35,876 bases of DNA from Planctomycetota bacterium (GTDB taxonomy: Bacteria > Planctomycetota > Phycisphaerae > SM23-33): contig JACRIL010000086.1 in NCBI GenBank assembly GCA_016235825.1, forward strand, positions 1-35,876, given 5' to 3'. Made by a program: the position numbers and the translations under genes. This document shows, piece by piece, positions 5,961 through 33,009 of this stretch. Numbering within the stretch: the stretch's first letter is position 1; each line of letters opens with the position of its first letter. Under the pieces are notes generated by a model. It worked only from the letters and a program-made list of their open reading frames with translations, did not search any database and was not told where the DNA came from.

Positions 5961-7571
5961 TCACTCAGCCGGATCGGCCTCGCCCAGCAGCGCGATAACG
6001 CTTTCGGCCAGCCGGCCCGCGAGTTCTTCGACGAACCTGGCGGAATAATCGGACGAGGAATTGTCCGCCGCGGACAGTTCGGCGGGTTTGACCGCCTTGC
6101 CCGTGGACGGTTCGGCCGGCCAGAGCCGCTTGCCGCCGCTGTCAACGATCTTCACTTCGGCCTCCAGCCGGCCCTGCCAGAGATTCTGCGACGACTTCAC
6201 CCGGCTGTCGGTGATGCGGACGTAAAGAACGACGTCGGCCGAGAGCTTCTGGCCGATCTGTCCGATCCGCATTGAACCGTAATCGGCCGCGGACTCGCGG
6301 AATTCCTTGAGCTTTTTGTATTCGACGGCGTGCCGGCAGAGTTTCCGGCCGGCCAGCTTTTTGTTCATGGCGTCGGTCAGGCCGGCCTGAATCCGTTCGC
6401 CGTCCGCGTCCGACGGGCGGCCCTCGACCAGGACAAGCACGCTCTTGCCCGCCATCGCTTTGAGAATCGCACCGTCGGACGGGCCGGCGGCAGGCGAGGT
6501 CGTTGCGGGCTTCGTCTGCGGCTCCGCCGATATGGGCCGCTCGGCGCGGACAGCGGTCGCCGGCTGGCCGGACGGACGGCTCTCGGCGGGGGCTATCGGC
6601 GTGCCTGGCAAAGTGGACGGGGCGATCTTCGGTTTGGTCGCAGACGTTGTTGCCGGCTTGTTATGCTGGTCGTCGCCGTGCCTTGCGGCCGGCTGCCGGG
6701 GCTGTTCCTGCTTGATCTGGCCAACGCTGATCGCCCAGACGCCCGATATTATCGACGTGTACCGGTCGCGGACCTTCTCGTAGCGTTCCCTGTCGGCCGG
6801 GCCGCAGGCCGCGTCGGCGTATTCCTGCTGAACCATCCTGCCAGATGCGTCCCGCTTGCCCAGCACGTCGTGCACGTCGGTGTTGGACGCCTCCTTCTTC
6901 AGGATGGCCGTGTCCAGCCCGAGAATCGCCGGCAGCGACTCTTTGTCGCGGACCGCGCAGGCCCAGGGCTTGCCCGTCTCCGAAAGATAATGCACCACAA
7001 TGACCGGCGAGTCTTCCGCAGACTGCCAGACCAGGGCCGACGGCAGGCTTTCGGAGGCTGTCTGAAGGGTCGCAAAGCACTGCTCGGACAGTTCGGCGTC
7101 AAGCTTTATAGGCCGGGCCTTCAGATCGAAATCAAACTGGTCAGGATGCAGAAAATTCGTCATGGCGTAAAAGCCCCCGCCGATGCGGGCCAAAACCATG
7201 AAGGCGTAATTTAGCTCGTCCATCTTTGCGCCCGCCGGCCGATCGATGTACTCCAGCACGATCATGTCCTGCCAGTTGGCGAACTGGGTGTTCAGAATGC
7301 CGCCCATCATGCGGAAGGCGGCGTTGTCGGGCCGGAAGTGCAGCATCTCCTGGAATTTTTCCCAGGCCCTGTCGGCGGCGCCGGCCGGCGGCCTGGCGAG
7401 CGGATTCGCCCCGCCCGACGGCGGCGACCAGTAGGCGCAGACCGGCAGGTGGTACGGGCAGAGCTTGACAGGCCGCTCGATGACGACCTCGACCGGCTTG
7501 TTCGGATCGGGTCCGCACCCCGCCGCAAACATCGCAGCCAACATCGCAGATAATATGCCAACGACTTTCAT
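5961..7571 (-). CDS. Lipoprotein with C-terminal TolB/LpoB-like domain
   Basis: This is a 536-residue predicted lipoprotein: a short charged start, a hydrophobic stretch and the lipobox AAGC with Cys19 as the lipidation site. Residues 20-290 form an unrecognised globular region. A linker of about 80 residues rich in Pro, Ala, Thr and Ser (about 300-380) follows. The C-terminal 150 residues start with ILKAMAGKSVLVLVEGR and include SADVVLYVRITDSRV and RLEAEVKIVDSGGKRLW. That pattern resembles LpoB, CsgG or TolB-N domains, which assemble at the inner face of the outer membrane. The start ATG follows AAAGGAAA. A plausible promoter lies at 7613-7641. I infer an envelope-assembly role but cannot name it. 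Confidence 0.7.
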   Translation of the reverse strand: MKVVGILSAMLAAMFAAGCGPDPNKPVEVVIERPVKLCPYHLPVCAYWSPPSGGANPLARPPAGAADRAWEKFQEMLHFRPDNAAFRMMGGILNTQFANWQDMIVLEYIDRPAGAKMDELNYAFMVLARIGGGFYAMTNFLHPDQFDFDLKARPIKLDAELSEQCFATLQTASESLPSALVWQSAEDSPVIVVHYLSETGKPWACAVRDKESLPAILGLDTAILKKEASNTDVHDVLGKRDASGRMVQQEYADAACGPADRERYEKVRDRYTSIISGVWAISVGQIKQEQPRQPAARHGDDQHNKPATTSATKPKIAPSTLPGTPIAPAESRPSGQPATAVRAERPISAEPQTKPATTSPAAGPSDGAILKAMAGKSVLVLVEGRPSDADGERIQAGLTDAMNKKLAGRKLCRHAVEYKKLKEFRESAADYGSMRIGQIGQKLSADVVLYVRITDSRVKSSQNLWQGRLEAEVKIVDSGGKRLWPAEPSTGKAVKPAELSAADNSSSDYSARFVEELAGRLAESVIALLGEADPAE

Positions 7572-8080: not shown

Positions 8081-8108
8081 AAGTCGCGCGACGCGGAAGT
8101 GCGTGGAA

Positions 8109-8245
8109 GTAATGGGTCAGTTACAGCGGGACAATCAGGCAGAGGGTCCCTTTTGTGGTGCGGGCGTCTCGCCTGCGTTTTTCTGTTCCGAAAAATTTGC
8201 AGGCAGGATGCCCGCACCACAATCACCCTGTAACTGCCCCATTAC
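8109..8245. mobile_element. 137-bp MITE-like element, possibly IS66-related
   Basis: The element starts GTAATGGGTCAGTTACAG and ends with its reverse complement, CTGTAACTGCCCCATTAC, an 18-bp terminal inverted repeat with one mismatch. It is flanked on both sides by the 8-bp direct repeat GCGTGGAA (8101-8108 and 8246-8253), which fits a target-site duplication. IS66-family elements are known for GTAA ends and 8-bp duplications. Inside lies a second inverted repeat, TTGTGGTGCGGGC (8153-8165) with GCCCGCACCACAA (8210-8222), whose core resembles other hairpin repeats in this window. It is too short to encode a transposase, so mobility would need enzymes supplied in trans. Confidence 0.75.
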
Positions 8246-8315
8246 GCGTGGAAACGGATTCTTTTTTGGCCGAGCAAGCGGCGGTGTAGTCTTTGAATTC
8301 ATTGCAGATTTCCAA

Positions 8316-8456: not shown

Positions 8457-9290
8457 ATGGATAAAGAAAAAGACATCAACAAATCAGGCTGGAATATCGA
8501 TCTGAAAAGAAACAGCCATCAACTTGCGGCATCCGATTCGGCAGAATTGATCGTTCGTGTTGAAGATTGTTTTGGAATTAAGATCTCCGACAAGGAAGCT
8601 CTCGAAATTTACACTATCGGGGAACTGTTTAAACTGGTTCTGCGGAAACTCGGACAAAAACCTGGCCCCAATGACTTGACTCGGGCATGCCTGACAGCCA
8701 GGACATTTTACCGCCTGCGCCTGGGGCTTCTGGGATTCAAGCATTGCGAGGGCATGCGGATTCGCCCGGATACGCCGATTGAGCAGGTGCTGCCGGCGAA
8801 GAATCGCCGGAAGCTCTGGCCGGAACTGGCAAAAAATATCGGCTTGAAACTGCCCCGCCTGCGACGATCAGCCGGAATTCGCAAGTTGGTAATTCCCCTC
8901 TGTATTATATGGATAGTTGCCGGCTGGCAAATCGTCAGGCTCGTTTTTCCGGCTGGATTTTACCCATCCCCATCGGTTGAAATATTTTTTGCGATCACAT
9001 TTTCAGGGCTCGCATTTATCCTGATCTTATGGATGATTTTGACTTGCCATCTTGTCAGAACAATCCCGGACTGCCGGAATGTCGGCGATCTTGCCAGGGA
9101 TATCCTTGGCGACAATCACGCCGTAATTTCCCAGGAAGTCGGACAGGGGAAAATTGCCCAGGCGGAAATGTCTGAACCGGAAAAACAGGTCTGGGCGGCT
9201 TTATTATACATTATTGCGGACATTACCTACATCAAGGAATCCGAGTTGAAACCCGGGGACCAGTTCGTGAAAGACCTCGACTTCGACTGA
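8457..9290 (+). CDS. Acyl-carrier-like membrane protein A (permuted ACP fold, no Ser)
   Basis: The 277-residue protein has three parts. Residues 26-66 (SDSAELIVRVEDCFGIKI...YTIGELFKLVLRKL) match helices II-IV of an acyl carrier protein. Residues 80-136 are a conserved Arg/Pro-rich module (ARTFYRLRLG, RIRPDTPIEQVLPAK, LKLPRL). Two membrane spans lie at about 143-163 and 174-199. Residues 240-277 (VWAALLYIIAD, ELKPGDQFVKDLDFD) match ACP helix I and the following loop, which normally come first. The phosphopantetheine serine of the DSL motif is absent (Ala at the aligned position). The start ATG at 8457 was chosen because sequence further upstream is repeat DNA. No strong ribosome-binding site is visible. 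It is a paralogue of the next gene, 12 nt downstream. Confidence 0.8.
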   Translation: MDKEKDINKSGWNIDLKRNSHQLAASDSAELIVRVEDCFGIKISDKEALEIYTIGELFKLVLRKLGQKPGPNDLTRACLTARTFYRLRLGLLGFKHCEGMRIRPDTPIEQVLPAKNRRKLWPELAKNIGLKLPRLRRSAGIRKLVIPLCIIWIVAGWQIVRLVFPAGFYPSPSVEIFFAITFSGLAFILILWMILTCHLVRTIPDCRNVGDLARDILGDNHAVISQEVGQGKIAQAEMSEPEKQVWAALLYIIADITYIKESELKPGDQFVKDLDFD

Positions 9291-9302
9291 TTGGAGACGG
9301 AT

Positions 9303-10076
9303 ATGGGACTGGATGCTGTAGAACTGGTCATACGCGTGGAAGATAGTTTTGATATAAAGATTCCCGACGATGAAGCCTCGGCAATAGTCAGCATCGGAGA
9401 CCTTTATCGTTGCATCCTCCACAAACTCGGACAGAGTCCGAAAACGGGTAATTTAAAGAAAAGATGCATGACAGCCAGGGCGTTTTATCGCTTGCGCAAG
9501 GGACTTTCCCGTCTTAAACATTGCGAAGGCCTGCGGATTCGCCCGGACACCCCGCTTGAGCAGGTTCTTCCAGCAAAAGACCGTCAGGATATTTGGCCGG
9601 GATTGGAGAAGAGCATAGGCTTAAAATTACCCCGACTGAAGCGGCCTCCCATAATCCCCGCATTGATGCTTCTACTTTGCATTGCATGGATGGTCCTGGG
9701 CACTTCGATTTTTTACATAAAACAGAACAAATGGCCTTCATACATCGGCTCGGCGTCAACGTTTGAAGTTTTCATGACGGGCCTGCTTGTAACAGCTCTG
9801 TTAATTCTGGTAGCGTCCCTGGTTTTAACGCGCCCGCTTGCCGTATGGATCCCCGGCTGCGCGAATACGGGCGATCTTGCAAAGGCGATCCTGCAGGATA
9901 ATTACGAAAAGATTGCCCAGGAAATCTTCCCCGTGAAATTCGACTCAAAAGAGATGTCTTTAAAGGAAAAAGAGGTCTGGATGGCATTGATCGAAATTGT
10001 TGCAGATCAGCTTGGCGTATATGCAGCCGAGTTGAAACCGGAGACCGAGTTCGTGAAAGACCTCAACTGCGGCTGA
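9303..10076 (+). CDS. Acyl-carrier-like membrane protein B (permuted ACP fold, no Ser)
   Basis: This 257-residue paralogue of the preceding protein opens directly with MGLDAVELVIRVEDSFDIKI, which aligns with ACP helix II just after the DSL site. Gly replaces the phosphopantetheine-bearing Ser. SIGDLYRCILHKL (30-42) corresponds to helix IV. The central module (ARAFYRLRKG, RIRPDTPLEQVLPAKDR, LKLPRLKRPP) is close to that of protein A. Membrane spans lie at about 117-138 and 156-177. The C-terminus, VWMALIEIVADQLGVYAAEL followed by KPETEFVKDL, is an ACP helix I and loop. Start: ATG at 9303 with GGAG at 9293-9296. The start is in the same frame as the stop of protein A. I recall similar planctomycete proteins, but know of no function. 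Confidence 0.85.
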   Translation: MGLDAVELVIRVEDSFDIKIPDDEASAIVSIGDLYRCILHKLGQSPKTGNLKKRCMTARAFYRLRKGLSRLKHCEGLRIRPDTPLEQVLPAKDRQDIWPGLEKSIGLKLPRLKRPPIIPALMLLLCIAWMVLGTSIFYIKQNKWPSYIGSASTFEVFMTGLLVTALLILVASLVLTRPLAVWIPGCANTGDLAKAILQDNYEKIAQEIFPVKFDSKEMSLKEKEVWMALIEIVADQLGVYAAELKPETEFVKDLNCG

Positions 10077-32848: not shown

Positions 32849-33009
32849 CCTGATTTGACTCCCGGGACCAATTTACCCGTGCCAGCCGTCTGACGGAAAC
32901 GAATTATCCATTATAATGTCCCTGAACCCAATCGCAACATCTTGCCGGCATGTTCGCGATTGTTTTTCAAACGGCCAATTGTAGGGTCCTGACCCTAACA
33001 ACCCGTTGA

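Follow-up and report, generated by a model that had tools for sequence, protein, structure and literature searches.

Which transposase, if any, is responsible for the short palindromic element found in an intergenic region of the window (the whole analysed stretch of 35,876 nucleotides)? The element occupies positions 8109-8245, measures 137 bp and is bounded by 18-bp terminal inverted repeats that are complementary at 17 of 18 positions, with one mismatch. The left repeat, GTAATGGGTCAGTTACAG (8109-8126, plus strand), is followed by a G-rich run, which reads CGGG in this copy and GGGGG in most others; the right repeat, CTGTAACTGCCCCATTAC, lies on the minus strand at 8228-8245. Directly outside the two ends the octamer GCGTGGAA is present on the left (8101-8108) and, identically, on the right (8246-8253), forming a perfect 8-bp target site duplication. 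Both coordinates and sequence agree with the preliminary description, in which this locus was read as a MITE of 137 bp with 18-bp ends, a single mismatch and a clean 8-bp duplication.

A left spacer (8127-8154, plus strand), within which other copies contain the small palindrome CAAACAATGTTTTG (alignment of 16 copies), leads to the core, composed of two facing 17-nt REP-like hairpins. Unit 1, GCGGGCGTCTCGCCTGC (8160-8176, plus strand), is directly followed by a T-run, kept in the 16 aligned copies, and therefore resembles an intrinsic terminator; it may terminate transcription. Unit 2, GCGGGCATCCTGCCTGC on the minus strand (8199-8215), faces unit 1 and pairs with it into the long stem of the element. 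As single-stranded DNA the element folds at -46.4 kcal/mol (z = -9.5 against shuffles), with the terminal repeats pairing first and the two facing hairpins next, and its structure is far beyond chance. No gene or coding capacity is present within the 137 bp. On one side of the element lies a reverse-strand open reading frame (start at 7571) and on the other one starting at 8457, about 200 bp beyond the element. The latter frame weakly resembles carrier proteins (PF00550, 21.2 bits); positions 8457-10076, downstream of the element, hold two adjoining open reading frames of 277 and 261 aa, both of which match PP-binding (phosphopantetheine-attachment) domains weakly and in part.

The whole-genome search for other copies, proposed in the preliminary description, located the element by BLASTN at about 45 places of the 4.80-Mb draft host genome, with at least 22 complete copies (both ends kept) and about 25 partial ones. 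The absence of other copies, named in the preliminary description as an outcome that would refute it, is thereby clearly contradicted. The 22 complete copies that were delimited are 130-171 bp long. The 16-bp end, allowing at most two mismatches, occurs 69 times in the host genome versus 0 for the reversed control pattern. Flanking 8-bp duplications with at most two mismatches accompany 13 of the 22 complete copies, six of them perfect, compared with 0 of 462 pairings when left and right flanks of different copies were cross-paired. Four further complete copies read better with 9-bp duplications containing one mismatch, perhaps 8-bp duplications to which an end base was added. The element is thus short and non-coding, with matched 18-bp ends and many dispersed copies flanked by target duplications, and the original reading as a MITE holds. 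Mean identity among host copies is 87.7% (range 77.6-97.7%); since they are only about 88% alike on average and many are truncated or interrupted, the burst in the host is old.

The host copies form two sub-lines according to the base following the 16-bp end, either A with T on the opposite side or G with C. Variant GTAATCCC ends are present in L018 and, less clearly, in L023 and L026, and a divergent subfamily has ends GTAGTGGGTCAGTTTCAGGAAAA in place of GTAATGGGTCAGTTACRGGGGG (L178, L050, C54:11101). Longer copies of 166-171 bp were seen in L024, L029, L035, L050 and L051; the core hairpin of L024 and L029 encloses a further hairpin (CTTGTCCGGC...GAAGCCGGA), which gives the impression of one hairpin repeat inserted into another. 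The G/C run beside the ends varies in length in L013 and L017, up to about 16 G, and resembles a slippage-prone tract. At C195:4191-4764 (L030/L034) a MITE copy is interrupted by about 480 bp with inverted ends (ACTACAACGC...GCGTTGTAGT); this insert seems to be a further mobile element nested in the MITE, and ends of the similar form ACTACAACG adjoin MITE copies in L021 and L035. Unrelated to the MITE core, a 226-bp repeat (84.5% identity) lies beside MITE ends at L003:1176-1400 and L046:2022-2246. L019 and L022 were considered as an empty-site pair and rejected, both holding the element inside one shared duplicated flank. Solo ends in the host genome were likewise rejected as termini of a longer element: they belong to truncated or interrupted copies without a transposase.

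Ends starting with GTAA and 8-bp repeats are typical of IS66 (PMC11946415). Both traits are found here, a minority of the duplications being read as 9 bp, and on these two traits the preliminary description had assigned the element to IS66. The assignment is now backed by a Verrucomicrobiota genome (G618), where a 1,886-bp element (C106:19-1904, designated L221) carries an intact 492-aa IS66 transposase between MITE-type ends. This protein scores 220.6 bits against NF033517 (NCBIfam IS66, cut-off 180) and 126 bits against PF03050. The ends of L221, GTAATGGGTCAGTGACGGGGGCGGGGAGCGG and GTAGTGCGTCAGTGACGGGGGCGGGGAGCGG, are alike at 29 of 31 positions, G-run included, bound the gene on both sides within about 35-375 bp and, in their outer 16 bases, are identical to the MITE end at 15 positions. 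L221 may not be an intact mobile copy, because one end is worn and a duplication is absent (the flank on the worn side is 18 bp). Two partial IS66 genes point the same way. In G615, contig C119 shows the end GTAATGGGTCAGTGAG and then the N-terminal part of an L221-type transposase (56% identity across 55 aa) before the sequence stops within the gene. In a Sedimentisphaerales draft, contig L080 contains the C-terminus of such a transposase (72% identical over 71 aa), followed after about 20 bases by the end GTAATCCCTCAGTTAT. This end is of the CCC type, while the same draft carries MITEs with GGG ends; a GGG-to-CCC variant of the same kind also bounds L018 (C38) of the host genome. L221 and the fragments in G615 and the Sedimentisphaerales draft each tie the MITE ends to one branch of IS66, independently of one another.

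Ends common with an autonomous element were thus found through L221 in G618, not within the host genome. The proposed search of the host genome for an IS66 transposase with the same ends gave a negative answer: no IS66 with GTAATGGGTCAGTTAC ends was found in this draft, from which multi-copy full-length elements are easily lost, and its sole IS66 ends differently. This resident IS66 is split over contigs C14 and C10, whose ends (L033 and L032 of G000) overlap by 15 bases inside the transposase and are therefore probably one locus; the C14 side abruptly joins an LpxK-like reading frame, possibly by truncation or a chimeric join. The resident element, ending in GTAACTTATCAGCCGTCTGCAACGG, was rejected as the driver, as were the IS66 elements of 60 relatives, none of which has MITE ends. 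They share with the MITE end at most GTAA-N4-TCAG and then diverge (8-10 of 16 matches), and are kin of the putative driver, not the driver itself. A PF03050 search of five MITE-carrying genomes gave no IS66 match in three, all fragmented drafts, and tblastn of the L221 transposase in plasmids returned only distant IS66 proteins, all below 60% identity.

About 85,000 species genomes were scanned for exact matches to the end plus its G-run, which were present at 12 places in five drafts (Sedimentisphaerales, Lentisphaerae, Verrucomicrobia, Auribacterota and Oligoflexia); further elements came from searching these drafts and a Verrucomicrobiota sample of 388 genomes. In nine other genomes the same ends bound similar elements of 70-255 bp. 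These genomes are named as Planctomycetota, Verrucomicrobiota/Lentisphaerae, Auribacterota and Oligoflexia, the last being the weakest case since its one complete element has no duplication; single occurrences could be explained by wrong binning of contigs. In the other genomes both ends could be placed for 27 pairs; 8-bp duplications with no more than one mismatch flank 23 of these, versus 2 of 702 control pairings. G594 holds seven copies that are 96-100% identical, five with perfect duplications, so the element family moved recently there. The distribution is patchy: complete MITEs were not found in the 60 relatives of the host genome, and among 392 genomes sampled from the host phylum the end with G-run was seen in the host genome only. 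Viral contigs yielded no end with G-run; 28 plain 16-mer matches there lack partner ends and were judged to be chance. An end pair of 1,521 bp (G450 C137) and another of 1,233 bp (G594 C76) were rejected as chance or gene-internal. Several contigs of the Sedimentisphaerales draft (L075, L077, L078, L080) terminate no more than about 60-90 bases from a MITE end, and the MITE or its hairpins therefore probably break the assembly.

The preliminary description had further noted that the palindromic core resembles hairpin repeats scattered in the genome, and about 100 matching hairpins are indeed present in the host, some standing alone. Its suggestion that the MITE may explain how such repeats moved is right only in part: the element can account for some of the hairpins, and many others lie outside any copy. 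The 20 hairpin sites beyond the called copies include single hairpins, hairpins within a second MITE family and two apparent divergent relatives of the IS66-type MITE. The second family has ends CAGCCCGTTGAAAAA and duplications of about 4 bp, and carries hairpins of the same kind. Its members are about 160 bp long with ends CAGCCCGTTGAAAA(A/T) (L186, L189, L190, L191 and L193 on host contigs C57, C75, C76 and C89), their short duplications are T-A centred (TTAG, ATAG, CTAA; an IS5-like target), and possible remnants are present in the window near 32999 and 35250. G059, from the class of the host, has the hairpins, and no complete MITE copy was found in it. The IS66-type MITE thus explains only a part of the hairpin spread, because hairpins also occur alone and in the second family. 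In other genomes the hairpins between these IS66-type ends are quite unlike those of the host; hence either the hairpins travel as cargo, or such ends have a tendency to assemble around hairpins.

It is very unlikely that the ends belong to another DDE family that also makes 8-bp duplications and that the IS66 genes are chance neighbours. Such an explanation would suit the missing driver in the host genome and the three MITE-carrying drafts without a PF03050 match, but not the L221 gene, enclosed closely on both sides by matching repeats that include the G-run, nor the two independent IS66 fragments that end in the same kind of end in other genomes; moreover, the probability that a random 16-mer agrees with the MITE end in at least 15 positions is about 1e-8. 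Y1 transposition is not known to make 8-bp duplications. Since these are found at most copies, it is extremely improbable that the element is in the first place a hairpin repeat of the REP/REPIN type, with a tyrosine (RAYT, Y1) transposase as its mover and with matched ends that are part of the hairpin. The duplication also sits outside the GTAATGGG end and not outside the hairpin, and the ends are common to several genomes while the hairpins differ. In favour of this reading stand a core built of facing short hairpins like REP doublets, the occurrence of such hairpins on their own, and the presence of known REP families in PVC bacteria (PMC3733652).

That the element is instead kept by selection as a regulatory or terminator sequence, its copies being conserved for that purpose and not fossils of a mobile element, is unlikely. 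The hairpin and T-run kept in the aligned copies, and the intergenic position of the window copy ahead of a gene start, would agree with it, but covarying pairs are few (3 of 46) and lend weak support to a selected RNA structure, a search of Rfam with the element gave no match, and many copies are interrupted or truncated. A regulatory role is in any case compatible with mobile origin and does not replace it.

On the basis of the matched ends, the duplications, the copy number and the association with an IS66 transposase elsewhere, we consider it very probable that the element is a MITE with ends from a single branch of the IS66 family; an IS66-type transposase would have moved it in trans. 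Because it lacks a gene, the element is not itself an IS66 and must be a derivative that depends on a transposase supplied in trans. In the proposed mechanism, a full-length element with ends GTAATGGGTCAGTKAC and G-run would supply the IS66 (DDE) transposase, which would recognise both MITE ends in trans and cut the element out or copy it. Joining to an 8-bp staggered cut would give the GCGTGGAA duplication, and the two facing 17-nt host hairpin repeats would be carried between the ends. The family is probably immobile, or stranded, in the host genome at present, because the full-length driver was not found there and the copies are old.

An orphan repeat family is now linked to a named transposase family, with L221 as candidate autonomous partner for the MITE. 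In such genomes, at least two MITE families that are unrelated to each other can carry short palindromic repeats as cargo, and MITE copies may break draft assemblies, several Sedimentisphaerales contigs ending inside or at one. The mechanism as such is ordinary; what is unusual is that a single type of end is paired again and again with hairpins specific to the host. We tentatively raise a possibility that we hold to be less probable than its opposite: in at least ten genomes of several phyla, ends of one IS66 branch repeatedly pair with terminator-like hairpins of the host, giving rise to convergent elements of the form end, hairpin doublet, end. If true, this would provide a general route for short palindromic repeats to spread and for insertions to become transcriptionally quiet.

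In our literature search, MITEs tied to IS66 proved little described and the ends of the window element were not found. The element resembles IS66 of the single-transposase type, which we take to be ISBst12-like by layout, in its GTAA ends, its 8-bp duplication and the 15/16 match to the ends of L221, but it is only 137 bp long and gene-free, with a core of host hairpins instead of IS sequence; the MITE end continues with TTAC and the G-run, in place of the CCGTCTGC or similar sequence found in the resident IS66 and in those of relatives. NEMIS, ERIC and Nezha are named as bacterial MITEs (PMC3733652), and the partner of MITEPsy1 of P. syringae is an IS5-type element, with a duplication of 4 bp (PMC3189936). 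With these four it has in common a length of 70-300 bp, matched ends of 15-30 bp, a non-coding and foldable sequence, and presumed mobilisation in trans by an IS transposase, whereas it differs from MITEPsy1 in being associated with IS66 and 8 bp instead of IS5-type and 4 bp. With REP doublets and REPINs it shares a core of two facing short hairpins; in the window element, however, these hairpins are cargo between IS66-type ends, and the 8-bp duplications show the mobility of the ends, not of the hairpins.
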